64,000 nucleotides of DNA from Haliscomenobacter hydrossis DSM 1100 (GCF_000212735.1 NC_015510.1:1364001-1428000), one strand, 5' to 3'. Shown: positions 14,504 to 59,193, counted from the stretch's first letter. Numbers and translations are program-made. The notes: generated by a model not told the origin, from the sequence alone.

Positions 14504-14588
14504 GTTCGAGGGTTCGGGGGTTCGAAGGTTTGGGAGTTCAAGGGGTAACCTTCGAACCCCCGAACCTTCGAACCCCCCGAACCCCTAA
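14504..14588. repeat. Intergenic inverted repeat built of 8-bp GTTCGRGG words
   Basis: Immediately after the stop of the seven-module gene come five 8-bp units (gttcgagg, gttcgggg, gttcgaag, gtttggga, gttcaagg), then an inverted set of the same word. A perfect 20-bp stem pairs 14511-14530 with 14547-14566 around a 16-nt loop. The right arm ends 12 nt before the SusC ATG. It could fold in the mRNA between the two genes. Confidence 0.85.
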
Positions 14589-17565: not shown

Positions 17566-17675
17566 GTTGAGAAGGTTGAGAGAGGTTGAGGAAGGTTGAG
17601 GCTGCCGCAAACGACGTTGACAGAAGCTCGCGGCAGCCTCAACCTTCCTCAACCTTCCTCAACCTCCCTAAACCA
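17566..17675. repeat. Inverted repeat of GGTTGAGGAA words in the susC-susD gap
   Basis: Tandem words of about 10 bp (GGTTGAGGAA type) form a left arm, mirrored on the right. The stem 17584-17608 pairs perfectly with 17630-17654 (25 bp) around a 21-nt loop, and partial pairing extends outward on both sides. The element starts 3 nt after the SusC stop and ends 8 nt before the SusD ATG, so any polycistronic message must contain the hairpin. Confidence 0.88.
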
Positions 17676-21393: not shown

Positions 21394-21436
21394 GTACAGT
21401 GTTTTATTGCGCCTTTGGCGCTGAGCGACATCAATA

Positions 21437-21674
21437 GGAACGCGGATGACGCGGATTTGGCGGATTTACGCGGATTTTTGCTTCGCCTGCGGCGAAATTA
21501 GAGTTGCCACAAATTGCACAAATTTTCACAAATTGGGTCACAAACTTCGTTTGTTCCCTCTGCTGGTGCGAAATGATGTTACATCAATTTGTGCAATTTG
21601 TGGCAAAAAACAACTCTGCCATAGGCAGGACCCTAATCCGCGTAAATCCGCCAAATCCGCGTCATCCGCGTTCC
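21437..21674. repeat. 238-bp multi-arm palindrome with perfect 40-bp terminal inverted repeats
   Basis: The outer arms, 21437-21476 and 21635-21674, are perfect 40-bp inverted repeats made of tandem GCGGATTTG-like words. A second perfect stem of 18 bp lies inside (21507-21524 with 21586-21603, CCACAAATTGCACAAATT). Two further small hairpins are TTCGCC-TGC-GGCGAA near 21482-21496 and CTGCC-ATA-GGCAG near 21616-21628. No ORF is supported. It starts 43 nt after the FKBP stop and ends 20 nt before the open frame of a truncated SUMF1 gene. Apart from this element the 21394-21694 gap holds nothing I recognise. Confidence 0.9.
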
Positions 21675-21724
21675 CATTATTGTCGCTTTGGTAATTTTGT
21701 AAAAAGCAGCGGGAGCAGCAACGC

Positions 21725-50184: not shown

Positions 50185-50742
50185 TTACCAGGTCCAAAGC
50201 CAATCCGTTTGCAAAGTTAAATCCAACTGCTGTGCGTACAAGGTTTCTCCTTTTTTATACACTCTGCTGTTTTGGTAGCTGCCTTCTTGGCTATCCCAGT
50301 AGGTGTGGACTTTTTGTTTGTTCAAATCGACGACCCAATATTCAGATACCCCTACGGCGGCATAAAGGTCTCGTTTCACCTTGTTGTCGTAGTTAAAAGT
50401 GGTATCAGACACTTCGATCAGAAGGAATAAATCTGTACTACGAAGCATCGCATTGACATAGTAGTCTGATCTGAATTTGGCCAAAGCGAGGTCTGGTTCA
50501 GGTTGAGTAAATTCACTCGCCATGAAAGCGCATTGGGGGAATACCAGTGCATTTTGGCCTACCTGTTCTACTAAAAAACGATTCAATTTGCTCACCATGG
50601 CGTTATGCCTTATTCCAATTGGGCTCATGTTGATGATTTCTCCGTTGATCAACTCCACCCCACGCTCAGGCAGTATTCCTGCTTCAGCCATCTTGTTGTA
50701 CTCGCTTACGGTGAACAATCGCCGCTGTATCTGAACAGACAT
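50185..50742 (-). CDS. Uma2-family (DUF820) PD-(D/E)XK nuclease-like protein
   Basis: The ATG at 50742 (MSVQIQRRLFTVSEYNKM) gives 185 residues; the longer frame from 50799 adds an unlikely leader. Uma2 motifs are VELINGEIINMSPIG, the PEPDLALAK segment with catalytic Asp, LLIEVSDTTFNYD (Glu) and KRDLYAAVGVSEYWVVDL. The PD-(D/E)XK fold suggests nuclease activity, but cellular roles of Uma2 proteins are not established. It is convergent with the broken barrel gene (2-nt gap). A second Uma2 gene of the same size lies at 57286-57843. Confidence 0.88.
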   Translation of the reverse strand: MSVQIQRRLFTVSEYNKMAEAGILPERGVELINGEIINMSPIGIRHNAMVSKLNRFLVEQVGQNALVFPQCAFMASEFTQPEPDLALAKFRSDYYVNAMLRSTDLFLLIEVSDTTFNYDNKVKRDLYAAVGVSEYWVVDLNKQKVHTYWDSQEGSYQNSRVYKKGETLYAQQLDLTLQTDWLWTW

Positions 50743-50915
50743 ATTGAATGATTTTGGAACAAGATACAATTTTTTGAGGCTTGGAGTCAAGTGGTACATT
50801 TGTTTATCAGCACAAAAATGGGGAATGAGGTGAGCAATTGCAAGGCAGTTTTGTAAGGTTTTGACCAGGGCAAATTGAGCGGATTGACCCGGTAATGATA
50901 CGATATGAAATAGAC

Positions 50916-51142
50916 TAGACTTGAGGAGAGTTGATTATCAGGCCATTGATTCACTGTCTAATGATTTTGAGTTTAGAGTTCCGAGTACATGACTTACGAG
51001 TTTAGAAGTGGGCTGCCGCAGCGACTTAGATCAAGGCTGTGTCTAAGTCGCTGCGGTAGCCCACTTCTAAACTCGTAAGTCATGTATTCTTAGCTCGTCA
51101 CTCTACTCCCAATCACCTGATAATCAACTCGTCTCAAGTCTA
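50916..51142. repeat. 227-bp nested palindrome downstream of the TonB receptor
   Basis: The outer arms 50916-50942 and 51116-51142 pair over 27 bp with two mismatches. The inner arms 50983-51030 and 51042-51089 pair over 48 bp with two mismatches around an 11-nt loop. The inner arm contains GAGTACATGACTTACGAGTT, also found at 55.9 and 57.9 kb. It begins 5 nt after the receptor stop (minus strand). The rest of 50743-51147 shows nothing I recognise. Confidence 0.88.
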
Positions 51143-51147
51143 ACCCT

Positions 51148-53784
51148 CTAGTTCTGCATCATATCCCCGCCCTGCATGTTCGTCCGGGTGTTTTTCCGGT
51201 TGAAGAGCGACATGTCCATTTTCCCAAAACGGTAGGAAAAATTCAGGCGAAGCAACTGCGGGTTCATGATGCGAGACGTTTCTTGCGAAAAGAAATCGGT
51301 CAAGGTGTAGGAACCAAACTTGCGGGTTTTAAAGATATCCGACGCACTCAAGGTCAACGTTCCCTGGTTTTTCAGCAAGTCCTTGCGGATAGAGGCATCC
51401 AAAAACCAGTAACTTTTGGTGTAGCCCTGCGCTGTGTTTTGGGCAGCGGGACCACCACCCTGGAAGGGGTCGTTGTTGGTTGAAGGCGTAAAGGAAGCCC
51501 GCGAGCGGTATTCCCCGTTGAATTGCAGCGCAAAACCTTTCGGCAATTTGATCTGTACAATCTCCTTTAAAAAACCACTGGTGCGGCTCGCTTTCAGGCC
51601 AGTCTCCACATTGCTGGCGTCCACGTCAGCTTGGAAGATGTTCAGGTTGGTCGTCAGGTCCAGCCAGCCAAAGAAGCTGTTTTTCAGGGTGAATTCTGCT
51701 CCGGTAGCCGAGGCACTGTTGCTGTTGGCAAAACTGGTGATGACCACCTCTTTATTCAAATCTGCGTTGAACTCGGTGAACTGGTAGGAAGCAATCAAAT
51801 TGCTGGCCTGCTTGTAATACACCGAGATCAGCAAGTTGTGATTTTTGGCAAAGATGTTCTGGTACGACAATTCCAGCGAGTTGGTAAATTCTGGAAGCAA
51901 AGTTGGGCTACCCCGGCGCAAGTTGAGCGAATCAGAGAAGTCAGTAAAAGGCATCGTCTGGAAAAAATTCGGCCGATTGACCCGGCGGGTATACGCCAAC
52001 TGAATTTGATCCTGATCGTTCAATTTCCGCGTCACAAACGCACTGGGGAACAAACTGATCGGGTAAGCAATGCTGAACGAAGAATCGCGATCGGTCAAAG
52101 CTCCCCGGTAAAGGCTACTTTCGGCGCGCAGACCTACCTGGAAACCCCAGTTTTTGCTCTGCTTGCTGAGTTGCAGGTATCCGGCGTACACATCATCGTC
52201 GAATTTAAAGTGATCGGACAACTGCGGAACCGCCCGCCAATCGTTGAGGTCTGCATCAAACACGGAGTTCATGTTGTCGTTGCGGTTGTTGCGCATCACG
52301 GCTTTCAGGCCACCTTCGAGTTTGAAGTCTTTTTTGAGTGGGTTGATGAAGTCTGTTTGGATGGTCATGAAGCTTCCCTGACCCAGACTTTCCTGCATTT
52401 CGCGGCTGCTGAAGCCCGAATCGTACAAAGTTTGAAAAGCGCTGCCGCCTTCAAAACGCACCTGGTTGAAGTTGAAATCCGCCGTCCATTCTGCGCCTTT
52501 TTTCGGGAAGAGATGTTTGAACTGAGTAGTCACCCCAAAGTTGCGGAAGCTACGGTCTTGCTCCGAGCTGCGTACATACTCACTGGTTACGGTATTGCCG
52601 GGATACAAAAAGTCGGTGGTATTGGTGATGGCGTCAGTGGGGCTGAATTTCCCCCGCACATAACTGCCGCTAAAAGTCAAGGTATTGCGGTTGTCCAGCA
52701 AGAGGTCTACTCCGGCCCGGCCGTTAGCGAATATCCCTTTCATCTGGCCTTCGGAAACTTGGGTCAGGTTGGAGGCAGGCTCGCCAAAGAAGTTTTCCCG
52801 CAAGGTTTCCCCTTCCATTTTGCCTCGGTTGCGCATGGCCATGAGGGAGCCAAAAACGTTCACTTTACTCCCCCGGGCGTTGATGTCGCCACCAAAGTTG
52901 ACCCCGCCCCGGGTGTCGGTTCCGGCGCGTACGCTGCCATTGTAACCCAGGCGTTTTTCTTTTTTCAAAACAATGTTGACAATCCCGGCGGTACCACCAC
53001 CCGCGTCGAATTTAGAGGAAGGGTTGGTAATCACCTCTACACTTTCAATCGCGTCAGCAGCGATTTGGTTCAAGGCGAGTGTTGTCGGGCGGCCATCCAC
53101 AAAAATTTGGGGTGAGCCATTGCGCAAGCTCACGTTACCGTCCAAATCTACGGACAGGGAAGGAACGTTTTTCAAGGCGTCCTGTGCTGTTCCACCCGCA
53201 GTGGTCAGGTCTTTGTCGATGCGGTAAGCCTTGCGGTCGAGTGCCAGGGTAGCCACCGAAGCTTTATCGGTGATGACGACTTCGCTCAAGGTTTTGGCTT
53301 CTGTTTTTAGCTTGATGTTGCCCAGGTCTTTTTCGCTGGCACCAGCACCCATGCCTGGAAAGCCGCCGCCTGCGGGCATGCCATTGGGCGCTCCAGCAGC
53401 GGGCATTTTAGGCGCAGACATGCCGAAGTTGAAACTTTGTTTGGTTTCGGCGAAGCCTAGAAAATTGATGACCAACTCGAAGTCGCCGACCATGGGCAAT
53501 TTTTCGATGTTGAAGTCTCCATTGTCGGCAGTCAGTTGACCTGCCCACATGGTATCTTTAAGGCTACGGTCGGCGGGGTTGAATTTTTTGCCAAAAATCT
53601 GGACGGTGGCGTAGCCCACGCCCTTACCCGCTTCGTCTACGACTTTGCCATAAACGCGGGCAATGTTCATTTTGGAAGGATCGAAGCCTTTGCCACCAGC
53701 AGGCGGGCCACCAGCAGGAATTTGTGCACTGATTCGGGTGATCAGCGCTAAAAAGAAAACAGTGAGGGTGATTGATTTGTGCAT
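51148..53784 (-). CDS. TonB-dependent outer-membrane receptor (OMP_b-brl_3 type)
   Basis: The ATG at 53784 (MHKSITLTVFFLALITRISA) gives 878 residues with a signal peptide. After a Gly/Pro-rich spacer comes a carboxypeptidase-regulatory-like domain (RVYGKVVDEAGKGVGYATVQ) interrupted by a Met/Gly/Pro-rich insertion (MSAPKMPAAGAPNGMPAGGG). A plug follows (LSEVVITDKASV, GTAQDALKNVPSLSVDLDGN, FVDGRPTTLA) and a large barrel ending LRLNFSYRFGKMDMSLFNRK. The end is again Met-rich. The cargo is not SusC-type and no SusD is adjacent; metal chelates or peptides are possible. It is divergent from a LytS/LytTR two-component pair that may regulate it. Confidence 0.88.
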   Translation of the reverse strand: MHKSITLTVFFLALITRISAQIPAGGPPAGGKGFDPSKMNIARVYGKVVDEAGKGVGYATVQIFGKKFNPADRSLKDTMWAGQLTADNGDFNIEKLPMVGDFELVINFLGFAETKQSFNFGMSAPKMPAAGAPNGMPAGGGFPGMGAGASEKDLGNIKLKTEAKTLSEVVITDKASVATLALDRKAYRIDKDLTTAGGTAQDALKNVPSLSVDLDGNVSLRNGSPQIFVDGRPTTLALNQIAADAIESVEVITNPSSKFDAGGGTAGIVNIVLKKEKRLGYNGSVRAGTDTRGGVNFGGDINARGSKVNVFGSLMAMRNRGKMEGETLRENFFGEPASNLTQVSEGQMKGIFANGRAGVDLLLDNRNTLTFSGSYVRGKFSPTDAITNTTDFLYPGNTVTSEYVRSSEQDRSFRNFGVTTQFKHLFPKKGAEWTADFNFNQVRFEGGSAFQTLYDSGFSSREMQESLGQGSFMTIQTDFINPLKKDFKLEGGLKAVMRNNRNDNMNSVFDADLNDWRAVPQLSDHFKFDDDVYAGYLQLSKQSKNWGFQVGLRAESSLYRGALTDRDSSFSIAYPISLFPSAFVTRKLNDQDQIQLAYTRRVNRPNFFQTMPFTDFSDSLNLRRGSPTLLPEFTNSLELSYQNIFAKNHNLLISVYYKQASNLIASYQFTEFNADLNKEVVITSFANSNSASATGAEFTLKNSFFGWLDLTTNLNIFQADVDASNVETGLKASRTSGFLKEIVQIKLPKGFALQFNGEYRSRASFTPSTNNDPFQGGGPAAQNTAQGYTKSYWFLDASIRKDLLKNQGTLTLSASDIFKTRKFGSYTLTDFFSQETSRIMNPQLLRLNFSYRFGKMDMSLFNRKNTRTNMQGGDMMQN

Positions 53785-53823
53785 GTTGCTGAAAATTTGT
53801 GTCGGCATTGCCGTGTCGGTTGT

Positions 53824-53985
53824 TAGACTTTATGAACAGAAGCTCACTTGGCCAGAACGGGGTCTTTTTGAGCTACTTTTCGGCTATTTTTTCGTCCGTA
53901 GCGCTGCTACGCACTCTAAAATAAGCCTCAACCAGCTCAAAAACACCTCCGTTCTGCTTCAAGCAGCTTCTGTTCATAAAGTCTA
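53824..53985. repeat. 162-bp near-complete palindrome between receptor and histidine kinase genes
   Basis: The terminal arms 53824-53844 and 53965-53985 are perfect 21-bp inverted repeats (TAGACTTTATGAACAGAAGC start). Internal matches continue to the centre: CAGAACGG, TTTTTGAGCT and a central GTAGCGC-type palindrome. It lies in the 335-nt divergent gap 53785-54119, which holds no gene. Confidence 0.82.
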
Positions 53986-54119
53986 TTTTAAATCCGCTAC
54001 AAAAATGCTACTTTCAATGCTATTAAAATGGGTGTCTCGATCAGCAGGAAGAATGTATCGGTGAACTGCCGGGTAGCCTATTTTTTCAGCTCGTTTTTTT
54101 CTCGACCTTTGCCGCAGAT

Positions 54120-55163
54120 ATGAAAACATCCTACGCCATCATCATACAGGCTGCCGTGTGGATCACGATTTGGGCAGTTTTTTCCTTTACTGGCAATACC
54201 GCAGATAGGTTGCCAGGCTTTTATTTGTTGAATACCTTATGGGTTTTGGGTTTTATCGTATTCTTTAATGTGTTTCATCGCATGTTGTTGCCCATTTTTT
54301 TTGCGGGCAAAAAAATGCTGTTCACCGGTATGGTTTTGCTGACACTGACGGGGTATGTGGCGTATTCGGTGGTCATCGACATCAATTTTCGCATTCCTGA
54401 AAAACTTTCTGCCGAGGCGCGTAAGGAAGTGCGCAAAAAAGCCCAAGTACCGCTCGAGTATTTGATCATCCCGAGTATTTTTCTGGGTTTGATGCTCTTT
54501 GGGGCTGCAGCATCGGTAGGAGGGCTTTCGGCCTTTGAAAAGAAGAAAAAAAGCGAAGAAGAAGCCAATCGCAGGCGCTTGGAAGCTGAAATTGCTTTGT
54601 TGAAGTCCCAAATCAACCCCCATTTTTTGGTCAACACCTTGAACAACCTCTACGTCCTCTCCCTGACCGAGCCGGAAAAAACGCCGAGTGGGCTCCTGAA
54701 GCTCTCCGAAATGGTGAGTTACATTTTATACGAGTGCGCCAAACCGATGGTTCCACTCGCGCTGGACATCGAGTTCATTGAAAATTACATCGCACTACAA
54801 CGCCTACGCTTGCCACCAAATGCCCATTTGCAGGTGGATTTGCCCAGTGTGGTGCCTCAGGAAATCGAAATTGAACCGATGATTTTGATACCTTTTATAG
54901 AAAATGCCTTCAAACACGGCCTGACGACCAAAACGTCTTGTGAGCTGTTGGTGTCGATTCAACTCCGGGGCAAACAACTGACCCTGGAAGTTAAAAACCC
55001 GGTGCTTCCACCCAAACCTGAACAAAGTGGCAATCCATCGGGCATCGGCCTGGCCAACACCCAACAGCGCCTGGAGCACTCTTACCCGCATAAGCACACC
55101 CTGAGCATCCACAACGATGGGCAAACCCACGTGGTTAAACTCCAAATAAACCTCGCGCCATGA
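54120..55163 (+). CDS. LytS/YehU-type sensor histidine kinase
   Basis: This is a 347-residue protein with four transmembrane helices in the first 145 residues, a charged coiled coil (FEKKKKSEEEANRRRLEAEI), then the His_kinase domain with H-box QINPHFLVNTLNNLYVL (His168) and an ATP-binding region with IPFIENAFKHG (N box) and SGIGLANTQQRL (G box). Most relatives have Phe in HFLFNTL where Val stands here. It overlaps the response-regulator gene by 4 nt (ATGA). The short periplasmic parts leave the signal unknown. The pair diverges from the TonB receptor gene. Confidence 0.92.
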   Translation: MKTSYAIIIQAAVWITIWAVFSFTGNTADRLPGFYLLNTLWVLGFIVFFNVFHRMLLPIFFAGKKMLFTGMVLLTLTGYVAYSVVIDINFRIPEKLSAEARKEVRKKAQVPLEYLIIPSIFLGLMLFGAAASVGGLSAFEKKKKSEEEANRRRLEAEIALLKSQINPHFLVNTLNNLYVLSLTEPEKTPSGLLKLSEMVSYILYECAKPMVPLALDIEFIENYIALQRLRLPPNAHLQVDLPSVVPQEIEIEPMILIPFIENAFKHGLTTKTSCELLVSIQLRGKQLTLEVKNPVLPPKPEQSGNPSGIGLANTQQRLEHSYPHKHTLSIHNDGQTHVVKLQINLAP

Positions 55164-55888
55164 CTTTCATCGCCCTCGACGACGAACCCCTGGCGCTAGT
55201 ACTCATTGAAAAATACGCTCGGGATATACCCGAGTGGACATTGCTCGCGACCTTTACCGATGCGACCGCCGCCGCCGAATATTTACAAAACAATACCGTC
55301 GATCTACTCTTGAGTGACATCAACATGCCCGACATCAGCGGGCTGCAATTCGTGCAAGCGCTGCCTGATGAACGGCCCATGATCATCTTTGTGACGGCTT
55401 ATAAAGAATATGCCCACGAGGGCTTCAACCTGGATGTGGTGGATTATTTGGTTAAACCTGTTGCACCTGAACGTTTCAAAAAAGCCTTGCAGAAAGCAGC
55501 TGATTTACTGGAATTGCAGCGTAAAGCTGAAGCCGCGAGCGCCCCCTCTCCTACGCCTCTGGATGATCATATTTTTGTATTTTCGGAGTATCAGAAGGTG
55601 AAAATTTTGCTCAAAGATGTGTTGTATTTGGAGAGTATGGGGGATTATGTGAAAATTTTCCTCCAGTCGCAACCCAAACCCATTTTGACTCTCGATCGTT
55701 TGAAAAATCTGGCTACACGTTTGTATGTACAGGGTTTTCGGCGAATTCATCGTTCGGTGGTGGTGAATGTGGCGAAGGTGGAAGTGGTGCAGAAGGCGCG
55801 GGTCAAAGTGGGGGGAACTTGGCTGGCGGTTGGGGAAACGTATTTGGGGGAATTGGGGGGTGAAAACTCGCAACTCATGTACTCGTAA
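55160..55888 (+). CDS. LytTR-family response regulator
   Basis: This 242-residue protein has a receiver domain with acidic pocket IALDDEPLA, phospho-acceptor Asp53 in LLLSDINMPDISG, the Thr/Lys switch (VTAYKEYAHEGF, DYLVKPVAPERF), a linker, and a LytTR DNA-binding domain from about 140 (IFVFSEYQKVKILLKDVLYL, FRRIHRSVVVNVAKV). It overlaps the kinase gene (ATGA) and surely acts with it. The last codons (SQLMYS, DNA caactcatgtactcgtaa) resemble the word of the adjacent palindromic repeat, so the C-terminus may have been altered by it. Confidence 0.92.
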   Translation: MTFIALDDEPLALVLIEKYARDIPEWTLLATFTDATAAAEYLQNNTVDLLLSDINMPDISGLQFVQALPDERPMIIFVTAYKEYAHEGFNLDVVDYLVKPVAPERFKKALQKAADLLELQRKAEAASAPSPTPLDDHIFVFSEYQKVKILLKDVLYLESMGDYVKIFLQSQPKPILTLDRLKNLATRLYVQGFRRIHRSVVVNVAKVEVVQKARVKVGGTWLAVGETYLGELGGENSQLMYS

Positions 55889-55906
55889 CTCTTCATTCCC
55901 CCTTTA

Positions 55907-56004
55907 ACTTCAAAACTCGTAAGTCATGTACTCTGCACTCGTCACTCAGATAAAGTTTTTTTTGAGTGACGAGTGCAGAGTACATGACTTACGAGTTTTG
56001 AAGT
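55907..56004. repeat. Perfect 42-bp inverted repeat downstream of the response regulator
   Basis: 55907-55948 and 55963-56004 are exact reverse complements (42 bp) separated by a 14-nt loop containing seven or more T residues. The arm contains ACTTCAAAACTCGTAAGTCA and CATGTACTC, shared with the elements at 50.9 and 57.9 kb. It starts 19 nt after the response-regulator stop. The rest of 55889-56211 shows no gene. Confidence 0.95.
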
Positions 56005-56211
56005 GGAAGGACGAATTAAGAATTTTGAAGTCGTTTACACAAAAATGCTGCCTCTCTCCTACACAGGCAAGCCATTTTCCACCAATTCTGACCAGGGCAA
56101 ATTCAGGTTATTGGGCACTTTCTGCGTCATTTTTCCCATCTTTTTTGTAACCCTCCAATCCATTTTGCTGTCTGATGATTTTACAACCCTAACACCCATA
56201 AACAAAGGATA

Positions 56212-57276
56212 ATGAGCGCAATAGACAACACCTTAACCAAGCTGGTCCAAGACGGCAAAACCCCTTCGGTACATTATACTTTTTTCAATCAGGACAGTAT
56301 CCTTCATACGTTCAAAACGGGTTTTGCGGATGTACAACATCAACAAGAAGTGTCCGATGACACCCTATACCATGCGTACTCTGCCACCAAAACCTTTACG
56401 GCTTTGGCAATTTTACAACTGGCCGAGCAGCAAAAAATAGATCTCGACCAAGCAGCAAGCACCTATTTACCCGACTTTCCTTATCCGAAAGAGATTACCG
56501 TGCGGCAGCTCTTGACCCATTCTGCGGGCATTGTTAACCCGATTCCACTAAGCTGGATCCATTTGGATACTGAACATTCCACGTTTGACGGGAACAATTT
56601 TTTTCGTCAAATCATACTCAAACATGCAACAATAAAATCAAAGCCGAATGAAAAATTTGCCTATACCAACCTCGGCTATATTTTACTCGGGTTAATGATT
56701 GAAAAGGTGTCGGGGCTAACTTACGAGGACTATGTGCGGGAAAACATTTTGCGCCGCCTGAACCTGAAAAGTGAGGAAGTAGACTTTACCGTAGCAGACA
56801 GCACCCGGCGGGCAAAAGGGTACCACAGGAAAAACAGCTTCTCCTATTTTCTTTTGGGCCTTTTTATGGATAAGCAAAAATACATGGACAAGGCTGAAGG
56901 CATATGGAAGCCGTTTAAACCTTTTTATGTAAATGGAGCGGCTTATGGCGGGCTGATTGGGACGCCAAATGCATTTGTACAATACGTTCAGGCGCTCTTA
57001 AAACCTGATTCGGTGCTCATTTCCAATGAATACAAAAAAATGTTGTTTGCGGAAAACCATTTGAACAAGCACCAGCCAAGCGGAATGGCTTTATCCTGGT
57101 TTTGTGACCACTTGAATGGAACAAAATATTGCGCACACGCCGGTGGTGGTGGTGGATATTATTGTGAAATCAGAATATATCCTGAAAAAGGACTGGGAAG
57201 TGTGGTCATGTTCAACCGAACCGGGATGACGAACGAAAAGTATTTAGATAAACTTGACCAATACTTCATTTCGTAG
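56212..57276 (+). CDS. Serine hydrolase of the beta-lactamase/penicillin-binding (class C) family
   Basis: This 354-residue protein shows no signal peptide at its N-terminus (MSAIDNTLTKLVQDGKTPS). Its catalytic motifs are SxxK at Ser57-Lys60 (YSATKTFTALAIL), YxN at Tyr151-Asn153 (FAYTNLGYILLG) and the third motif HAGGGGGYY. Class C-like serine hydrolases include esterases, D-aminopeptidases and carboxypeptidases; which applies is unclear. Lacking an export signal, it may be cytoplasmic. It is convergent with the second Uma2 gene (9-nt gap). Confidence 0.9.
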   Translation: MSAIDNTLTKLVQDGKTPSVHYTFFNQDSILHTFKTGFADVQHQQEVSDDTLYHAYSATKTFTALAILQLAEQQKIDLDQAASTYLPDFPYPKEITVRQLLTHSAGIVNPIPLSWIHLDTEHSTFDGNNFFRQIILKHATIKSKPNEKFAYTNLGYILLGLMIEKVSGLTYEDYVRENILRRLNLKSEEVDFTVADSTRRAKGYHRKNSFSYFLLGLFMDKQKYMDKAEGIWKPFKPFYVNGAAYGGLIGTPNAFVQYVQALLKPDSVLISNEYKKMLFAENHLNKHQPSGMALSWFCDHLNGTKYCAHAGGGGGYYCEIRIYPEKGLGSVVMFNRTGMTNEKYLDKLDQYFIS

Positions 57277-57285
57277 GCAGATTTC

Positions 57286-57843
57286 TCATCTAAAAATCCG
57301 CTCCACCTCCAATTCAAGACCCAAAACTTCAACATGAAGCACCTCCCCATTACTCAAGGTTTTTAGCTCCTGATACCTCCCATCAATTGGATGGGTATAC
57401 ACCTCCACTGTGTTGTTTTTCAAGTTGACAATCCACACTTCGGGAATACCTGCTTCGGCGTATAAGGGCAGTTTGATCTTACGGTCTTTTTGGAGGGTGG
57501 TATCGGCTACTTCAATTAAAAAATGGACATCCTCAGATCGCGGATGTTGATGGCGGTATTTATGGTTCTGAAATTTTGCGATGGTCAAATCTGGTTCTGG
57601 TTCAGAATATGTATCAATAGATAACGGATTTTGGCATTTTACAATTGCTTGGCCATGGAGCAACAAAACCAAGATCTCGTGTAGATCGTCTACAACACTG
57701 GAGTGAAAACTTTTTATCGGGCTCATCTGGATAATTTCACCATGGATCAGTTCAAAGCGGTCTTCTGGAGCGAGGATACCTACCTCGGCCATTTTGTAAT
57801 AATCATTTACCGTAAATAATTTTCGTTGCGTTTGAACCGCCAT
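57286..57843 (-). CDS. Uma2-family (DUF820) PD-(D/E)XK nuclease-like protein
   Basis: This is a 185-residue paralogue of the protein at 50185-50742, starting MAVQTQRKLFTVNDYYKMAE. Its conserved blocks are FELIHGEIIQMSPIKSFHSS, the PEPDLTIAK motif with catalytic Asp, FLIEVADTTLQKDRKIKLPL and the GIPEVWIVNLKN strand. It appears intact. The Uma2 role is not established. A long repeat lies upstream of its start. Confidence 0.88.
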   Translation of the reverse strand: MAVQTQRKLFTVNDYYKMAEVGILAPEDRFELIHGEIIQMSPIKSFHSSVVDDLHEILVLLLHGQAIVKCQNPLSIDTYSEPEPDLTIAKFQNHKYRHQHPRSEDVHFLIEVADTTLQKDRKIKLPLYAEAGIPEVWIVNLKNNTVEVYTHPIDGRYQELKTLSNGEVLHVEVLGLELEVERIFR

Positions 57844-57883
57844 CTAATGCTATTTTTTTACAAAGATAAATCATTTAGCGATC

Positions 57884-58063
57884 CCTCACAAGCTACGCCT
57901 TCACTTCAAAACTCAAAACTCAAACTTCTCCCTTCCACTTCAAAACTCGTAACTCAAAAAACAATTTTAACTGAGTGAAGAGTTCCGAGTACATGACTTA
58001 CGAGTTTTGAAGTGAAGGAAGGACGAGCGTTTGAATGTAGAATTAGGAAGTGCCTCACAAGCT
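57884..58063. repeat. Palindromic repeat flanked by an 11-bp direct duplication
   Basis: CCTCACAAGCT occurs at 57884-57894 and again at 58053-58063. Between them is an imperfect inverted repeat: ACTTCAAAACTCGTAACTC-type words on the left (57904-57956) and GAGTTCCGAGTACATGACTT plus ACGAGTTTTGAAGTGAAGG on the right (57981-58018). The right arm matches the 50.9- and 55.9-kb elements. The second direct copy overlaps the last codons of the GntR gene. Confidence 0.82.
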
Positions 58064-59065
58064 CCCCCGCCGTACCAAATAAAACGGATTTTTCACCTTC
58101 TCCTTCTTTCCCTCCAGCAACAACTGCGCCGCAGTCCTTCCCATGGCCTCAAAATCCGTCGTAATCACGGTGATGTCCAACACCTCCTTGAGCGTGGTGT
58201 CATTGAAAGAAATGAGGCCGATGTTTTGACCCAGTAGCAATGGCGTTTGGCGGATTTTTTTGATCAGTTCCGCCAGATCGGTTTCTTCGATAACACAATA
58301 CACCGTACCCTCGCGGACTTGCTCTTCGCTGGCAGATTCGATGATTTGGTAGGCCTTTTTGTAATTGACGCAGTAGTTGTGGAAGCCTCGGGCGATCTCC
58401 GTGGGATAGTTGCCGTCGCTGGGCATCACGAGCACCATTTGGGTGTACTTTTGCAGCAACTCATTGGCGGACAAGAGTGCATTAAAGATGTCGCGTTGAA
58501 AATCCTGATAAACGGCCAGGTGTTTGTTGGGCAGATTGGGGTAATCCTTGTCCAAAAAAACCAGTTCATCCGCCGGGATACTCTTTAACACTTCCTCCAG
58601 ATTGACCTTTTCCAAATCGTGTACAAAATGCGGCATGACCACGTAAAAATTGTATTTGCCCACATTGCGTTCGATGATGTCGGCAAAAAGTTTGGCGCTG
58701 TAGTGGTGTACCTGTAAATCCACCTGGGCACGTTCGCCCAATTGTTGCAAAAACGAATAGTAGATCAGCCTTTTGTAGGAACTGAGTTTATTAAAAATCA
58801 GCAGGATGCGAATTTTTCCATCGTTGCCCCCCGACACGTAATAGCCCTTGCCCTGCACGGACACAATGAATCCCCTTTCCCGTAGTTCGCGGTAGGCTTT
58901 TTCTACGGTATCCCGGGCCAAATCGTAATGCGCACTCATTTCACTGATGGAAGGCAACTGGTCGTTTTTTTTCAACAGCCCCCTTTCGATATCCGTGATG
59001 ACTGACTCTACGATCTGTTTGTATTTGGGCGTTTTGGACTTGTGATTGAGATGGAGGAGGTACAT
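58055..59065 (-). CDS. GntR-type regulator with LacI-like ligand-binding domain, probable rhamnose regulator
   Basis: The ATG at 59065 (MYLLHLNHKSKTPKYKQI) gives 336 residues. The open frame from 59161 only adds a translation of the intergenic repeat (LEPPNPRT-like) and is rejected. Residues 1-75 form a GntR winged helix (LLKKNDQLPSISEMSAHYDL, DTVEKAYRELRERGFIVSVQ), followed by a periplasmic-binding-like sensor domain (ILLIFNKLSSYKRLIYYSFL to LISFNDTTLKEVLDITVITT). It lies 130 nt downstream of rhaD on the same strand, which suggests it responds to rhamnose or a rhamnose intermediate; that link is inferred from context. Confidence 0.85.
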   Translation of the reverse strand: MYLLHLNHKSKTPKYKQIVESVITDIERGLLKKNDQLPSISEMSAHYDLARDTVEKAYRELRERGFIVSVQGKGYYVSGGNDGKIRILLIFNKLSSYKRLIYYSFLQQLGERAQVDLQVHHYSAKLFADIIERNVGKYNFYVVMPHFVHDLEKVNLEEVLKSIPADELVFLDKDYPNLPNKHLAVYQDFQRDIFNALLSANELLQKYTQMVLVMPSDGNYPTEIARGFHNYCVNYKKAYQIIESASEEQVREGTVYCVIEETDLAELIKKIRQTPLLLGQNIGLISFNDTTLKEVLDITVITTDFEAMGRTAAQLLLEGKKEKVKNPFYLVRRGSL

Positions 59066-59071
59066 GGTTGA

Positions 59072-59193
59072 GGGTTCACGAGGGTTCGGGGGTTCGAGGG
59101 TTCGAGGGTTCGGGGGTTCGAGGGTTTGGGAGTAGCACCAGAACCCTGGAACCCAACCCACGAACTCACGAACCCACGAACCCCCGAACCCTA
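59072..59193. repeat. GTTCGRGG word array with inverted right arm between rhaD and gntR
   Basis: Six 8-bp units (GTTCGGGG, GTTCGAGG, GTTCGAGG, GTTCGGGG, GTTCGAGG, GTTTGGGA) run from 59084 to 59131. The right side (59158-59193) is the inverted word with GAACCCACGAAC-type units. It fills almost all of the 130-nt rhaD-gntR gap and ends 2 nt from the rhaD stop. The same word family is found at 14.5 and 19.2 kb. Confidence 0.86.

Follow-up and report, generated by a model that had tools for sequence, protein, structure and literature searches.

The palindrome at 50.9 kb of the window (the whole 64,000-nt stretch of the Haliscomenobacter hydrossis DSM 1100 genome analysed here) is a member of a dispersed MITE family, family A, as judged from its terminal repeats, the target duplications and element-free sister sites of the family, and its short, non-coding length. 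The two other hairpins that carry the same core, at 55.9 and 57.99 kb, are a different thing, namely stand-alone hairpins of the middle module. We favour with good confidence a reading in which the 50.9 kb element is a MITE-like, non-coding palindrome of a ~250-bp class, mobilised in trans by a transposase of the DDE type, with exchangeable middle and core layers, while the 55.9 and 57.99 kb hairpins are old and inherited. The features concerned are listed in Table 1.

Table 1. Hairpin elements, their layers and adjoining genes (window coordinates)
Feature	Position	Strand	Evidence or remarks
Uma2-family putative endonuclease gene adjoining the 50.9 kb element	50185..50799	-	Pfam PF05685
Complete family A element, nested palindromic MITE, 227 bp (TA-inclusive ends)	50916..51142	.	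~22 genome copies with matching ends; RNA fold z -21
Left terminal inverted repeat GACTTGAGGAGAGTTGATTATCAGG, outer layer	50918..50942	+	Whole-genome pattern search
Middle layer, left arm, GAGTNNN words, GAGTTCCGAGTACATGACTTACGAGTTTAGAAGTG	50969..51011	+	
Inner core hairpin GCTGCCGCAGCGACTTAG...CTAAGTCGCTGCGGTAGC	51012..51060	.	Also at tip of unrelated GGTTGAG-word hairpins
Middle layer, right arm	51061..51103	-	
Right terminal inverted repeat, outer layer	51116..51140	-	Whole-genome pattern search
Outer membrane beta-barrel / TonB-plug protein	51148..53808	-	Pfam PF14905, PF07715
Family B palindromic MITE, 162 bp, ends TAGACTTTATGAACAGAAGC...	53824..53985	.	Relatives in own genome; missing at site in G125
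Response regulator with LytTR domain, upstream of the 55.9 kb hairpin	55160..55888	+	Pfam PF00072, PF04397
Extra degenerate word-module copy overlapping 3' end of the LytTR regulator gene	55858..55898	-	
Stand-alone word hairpin, middle module only, inside-out, no terminal repeats	55887..56024	.	Arms 68 nt, 88% complementary; fold z -19
Stand-alone word hairpin, decayed, left arm incomplete	57898..58024	.	Fold z -5
GntR/LacI-type regulator; the 57.99 kb hairpin is 3' of the gene	58055..59161	-	Pfam PF00392, PF13377

The initial annotation had reported a repeated hairpin core at 50.98, 55.98 and 57.99 kb, and all three copies are present together with three inverted matches. The sequence GAGTACATGACTTACGAGTT occurs on the plus strand at nt 50983, 55978 and 57987, and inverted at nt 55914 (exact), 51070 (one mismatch) and 55865 (two mismatches), giving six occurrences in the window where none is expected by chance (dinucleotide-preserving shuffles give none). 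The AGAAGTG/TGAAGTG flanks of the core are readable directly in the sequence, and the second stretch described as shared by two elements is GAGTTCCGAGTACATGAC, common to those at 50.98 and 57.99 kb. Their reported location past a gene or in a gap was also borne out, as all three lie 3' of a gene, the 50.9 kb element lying 6 bp beyond the stop of the beta-barrel/TonB-plug gene. Self-folding is extreme at 50.9 kb (predicted RNA fold of -147 kcal/mol, z -21) and at 55.9 kb but much weaker at 57.99 kb. The inner sequences do differ, as had been stated, the reason being that only the 50.9 kb copy is a whole element, 227 bp long and with ends of its own.

The genome of the sheathed bacterium H. hydrossis comprises 8,771,651 bases (largest contig 8,371,686), in agreement with published sizes (PMC3156403). 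Other copies had been expected, and a whole-genome search with the 50.9 kb stretch, combined with alignment of the ends, returned about 22 copies of family A, some of them degenerate; about 20 of the matches were long and covered most of the element, and many others were short and partial. The 15 copies in which both ends are well preserved are 227–274 bp long and 78–95% identical (median 84%), and the elements are non-coding and palindromic throughout. The terminal repeats GACTTGAGGCGAGTTGATTATCA are common to the dispersed copies. The family is bounded by inverted repeats TAGACTTGAGGCGAGTTGATTATCAAG, which most element ends match with 0–6 mismatches, while random genome stretches never came closer than 10 mismatches of 27.

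The left and right 5-bp flanks of the same family A copy agree at 82 of 115 positions against a permutation mean of 64.8 (0/5000 permutations). Flank lengths of 2–4 and 6–9 bp gave no signal in the same test, and a target duplication of 2 (TA only), 3, 4 or 6–9 bp was rejected. As the permutation preserves base composition, an AT-rich target preference alone cannot account for the 5-bp pairing. Perfect duplications (CATTA, TACAA and TATTG) are found in 3 of 23 copies, and most of the others are imperfect through decay. Element-free sites, which had also been sought in relatives, were found for several copies as well as for the family B element in Table 1. The copy at 6289162 has TACAA on both sides, but the sister species G125 (JAIXOO01) lacks the element and has a single TACAG, that is, a single-target AAATGTACAGG compared with AAATGTACAA...TACAATAA around the element. 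Copies 4862532, 7468079 and 7019459 are likewise missing at the corresponding sites in sister species. Such absences could partly reflect deletion or loss; together, the data support mobility of family A since the species diverged. The description of an active non-coding hairpin family therefore stands as regards a dispersed, non-coding and mobile family, but the divergence between copies and the decay of most duplications do not support the word active. For the 50.9 kb copy itself, the 5-bp flanks agree at only one of five positions and G125 keeps the outer palindrome alone, with a different loop, so that its insertion is inferred from the family; the inner layers were either gained at this site or lost in G125. 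In a further sister, G199, this site is occupied by an unrelated, ordinary hairpin that is rich in GC.

A second family supplies an independent case of 5-bp flank pairing. Family B elements are palindromes of ~160 bp (~30 copies counted by their ends) with the same GACTT tip as family A, and their flanks agree at 83 of 120 positions against a permutation mean of 68.8 (0/5000). Four copies with extra length were examined, two of +20 and two of about +31 to +35; in all four the difference lies at the apex, which is occupied by another palindrome, and they probably represent only two independent events. Elsewhere (L316, C1:3638500-3641500), a stretch opening with the family B-like end TAGACTTATTGCGACGAGAG is present as two nearly identical direct copies ~2.16 kb apart.

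In the proposed mechanism, a DDE-type transposase would recognise the GACTT-tipped terminal repeats and make cuts staggered by 5 bp in AT-rich targets (about YANTR). Family A palindromes would be moved in trans, without an enzyme of their own, carrying inside their ends two further palindromic layers, the word-built arms and the GC-rich core, as exchangeable modules; family B, which has the same tip and includes nt 53824-53985, probably depended on an enzyme of this kind. Whole-genome end-pattern searches returned mostly the paired ends of short elements and no transposase gene with family A or B ends. Inverted end pairs 0.7–3.6 kb apart, sought in 1.47 Mb, included no convincing autonomous partner, and no gene-carrying partner was seen at the three lone family B ends that were read, several other single-ended matches lying in unread stretches. 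A 1456-bp inverted pair was rejected as an autonomous partner because its ends extend beyond GACTT and it is thus a different element.

The element is built of three layers (outer repeat, word-built middle arms and GC-rich core), each of which is also found alone or in other hairpins. Outer repeats without an interior occur as 37–52 bp palindromes at 551832, 2890264, 4010537 and 6975219, and the sequence of some of these junctions resembles that of internal deletions between short repeats near the hairpin base. The copy at 2890264 was considered as a case of nesting at a hairpin tip and rejected, as this outer-only copy sits in one arm of another hairpin. In the middle arms, GAGT words alternate with spacer triplets drawn from a small set, GAC, TCC, TAC and TAA accounting for 67 of 87. 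The core, GCTACCGCAGCGACTTAG...CTAAGTCGCTGCGGTAGC, also tops hairpins with GGTTGAG-word arms (6226128, 6287219, 7280901 and others). Middle arms and core are exchangeable modules, and tip modules are swappable in at least two families. The arrangement is suggestive of tip-directed growth of nested hairpins, and the layers of family A may have been added at the tip. A broader scheme, which we regard as possible though rather unlikely, is that modular word hairpins grow at their tips genome-wide, with palindromes inserted or swapped at the apex (e.g., at a nuclease-cut loop), arms re-copied, and a MITE shell occasionally capturing and dispersing the stack.

Several other word hairpins were noted. 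One at nt 17573-17665 has arms of AGGTTGAGGA words and a tip, GGCTGCCGC, equal to the start of the family A core. A nested hairpin at nt 21424-21687 has outer arms of CGCGGATT words (ends AGCGACA...TGTCGCT) and inner arms of CACAAATT words; AGCGACA ends are common to several other word hairpins in the genome, and these are possibly another MITE shell. Hairpin arms of GGGTTCGA words occur at nt 14505-14588 and 59081-59192, and CACGACG-word hairpins lie between gene ends at C1:1534923-1535059 and other places, several of them with GCGGTAGC-type tips.

Of the family A layers, the hairpins at 55.9 and 57.99 kb have just the middle one (GAGTNNN words), in inside-out order and without the family A ends. 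Both are found at orthologous sites in G125 and are therefore vertically inherited. Of the single three-element family described in the initial annotation, the 50.9 kb copy belongs to family A but these two do not, and inheritance at identical sites, which would have spoken against a mobile family, applies to them and not to family A. The left arm at 57.99 kb has lost a segment retained by the G125 orthologue. In the 55.9 kb hairpin, one word triplet differs from G125 on both arms (TGC/GCA versus GGA/TCC), and three other differences in G125 are confined to one arm. The triplet change is a single concerted event, which template switching or selection on pairing could have produced. The genes between the two hairpins (nt 55887-58024) differ by species, with a beta-lactamase-like and a Uma2 gene in H. 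hydrossis and ~0.7 kb of other, apparently coding DNA in G125, as if cassettes had been exchanged between the hairpins.

The elements are located at gene 3' ends, only 1 of 27 lying between divergent genes compared with 21% of spacers (P about 0.01; gene positions from simple ORF calls). This raises the question of whether the hairpins are functional RNA or DNA structures, such as terminators or mRNA stabilisers, kept by selection at gene 3' ends and alike through function rather than movement. Almost all are placed immediately after stop codons and they avoid divergent promoters, the ordinary hairpin of G199 occupies the 50.9 kb site, and the 55.9 kb triplet changed on both arms, all of which would fit such a role. 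The arms, however, have the polarity 5'-TTTT...AAAA-3', opposite to that of an intrinsic terminator; a scan for terminator-like sites gave no hit at the 50.9, 55.9 or 57.99 kb hairpins, and its total was no higher than in shuffles. The elements have no Rfam match above the gathering score, and the target duplications and element-free sites show insertion of family A. A functional origin of the resemblance is therefore considered improbable. Retention at 3' ends may be due to the target preference, YANTR being similar to stop codons, to selection against other locations, or to a combination of the two.

Slightly less probable again is an origin in place, in which slippage during replication and template switching from one arm to the other (quasi-palindrome correction) would have produced the palindromes without transposition. 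The short tandem words of the arms and the concerted change at 55.9 kb are as this would predict, and family A arms match their own partner slightly better than the arms of other elements (0.839 versus 0.818, p 0.005). The excess is small, though; strong co-evolution of arms within family A elements was rejected on this ground, and most of the arm complementarity is inherited. Nor would an origin in place account for the common ends and 5-bp duplications of ~22 copies, or for their differing presence between species. Slippage and template switching are nevertheless a good candidate for the evolution of the stand-alone word hairpins.

Movement by an IS200/IS605-like Y1 transposase acting on single-stranded hairpins (REP/RAYT), proposed at the outset as a possible driver, is very unlikely: the genome has seven Y1_Tnp loci, some with palindromes nearby, but the family motifs lie within 1.5 kb of none of the seven, the palindromes beside L033-L035 differ in sequence, and Y1 chemistry is not expected to leave 5-bp target duplications. 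At L034 and L035, palindromes of the type CCCCGAAGGGGTGACATGATTATAG adjoin the Y1 transposase genes in several copies, and these are likely a separate REP/RAYT system of the genome.

Long hairpins are abundant in H. hydrossis. Contiguous stretches totalling 1.05 Mb contain 133 long inverted repeats, or 126 per Mb, a figure resting on stretches of at least 150 kb that were themselves partly picked to include known copies (the whole census covers 1.47 Mb in stretches, partly picked around known copies). Arms clearly periodic at 7–10 nt are present in 39 of the 133, compared with 2 after shuffling, and one 404-kb stretch has 58 long inverted repeats where Markov-simulated sequence of the same composition has none. 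Another genus member (G018) has 3 in 110 kb, and none was found in 260 kb sampled from three other genera of the family; these genomes are drafts, in which contigs tend to break at repeats, and the contrast should be read as an upper bound. The exact 20-mer core, sought in 84,980 species genomes, was matched only in two Saprospiraceae/Chitinophagales MAGs (one of them G125) and in a lone Aliikangiella sequence; apart from this one gammaproteobacterial match it is limited to the genus. Plasmid and viral collections returned no match, and an incomplete literature search found no published description of these elements. Long palindromes are usually unstable in bacteria, yet ~126 long hairpins per Mb are retained here, which makes this genome a natural setting in which to study how hairpins arise, survive and nest. 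Sister species provide comparative sites where the same position has a full element, an outer-only element, another hairpin or no element.

Family A is a genuine MITE family, restricted to this lineage, whose interior is unusual in being nested and modular, and the genome that carries it is rich in word-built hairpins. Palindromic MITEs are already known, and the novelty lies in the modular nesting. Prokaryotic MITEs such as QMITE and Chunjie (PMC10969869) are similarly non-coding, ~160–270 bp long, with terminal inverted repeats, target duplications, dispersed intergenic sites and no enzyme of their own; the Haliscomenobacter elements differ in an interior that is a stack of exchangeable palindromic modules and in that an autonomous partner was not found. 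BrickBuilt of Porphyromonas gingivalis (PMC4596501), present in 19 copies, is also an intergenic MITE of a Bacteroidota host with a tandem-repeat interior and predicted long stem loops. Its repeat is a 23-nt direct minisatellite, whereas in Haliscomenobacter 7-nt-type words stand in opposed arms, so that the entire element forms a single palindrome, and its core recurs in other hairpins. REP/BIME sequences with RAYT (PMC3733652) are likewise intergenic palindromes located mostly downstream of genes, but REPs are 20–40 bp with a GTAG or CGTC tag, and the elements described here show no link to RAYT and have target duplications of 5 bp. Intergenic heptamer repeats such as TAACTGA, known from Beggiatoaceae, Cyanobacteria and some Bacteroidetes (PMC4679880), resemble them in their short tandem intergenic words and patchy occurrence across phyla. 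In those repeats a single word is arrayed directly, and in the best-studied genome most of the arrays precede start codons, whereas the Haliscomenobacter structures are inverted-arm hairpins past stop codons and use many words.
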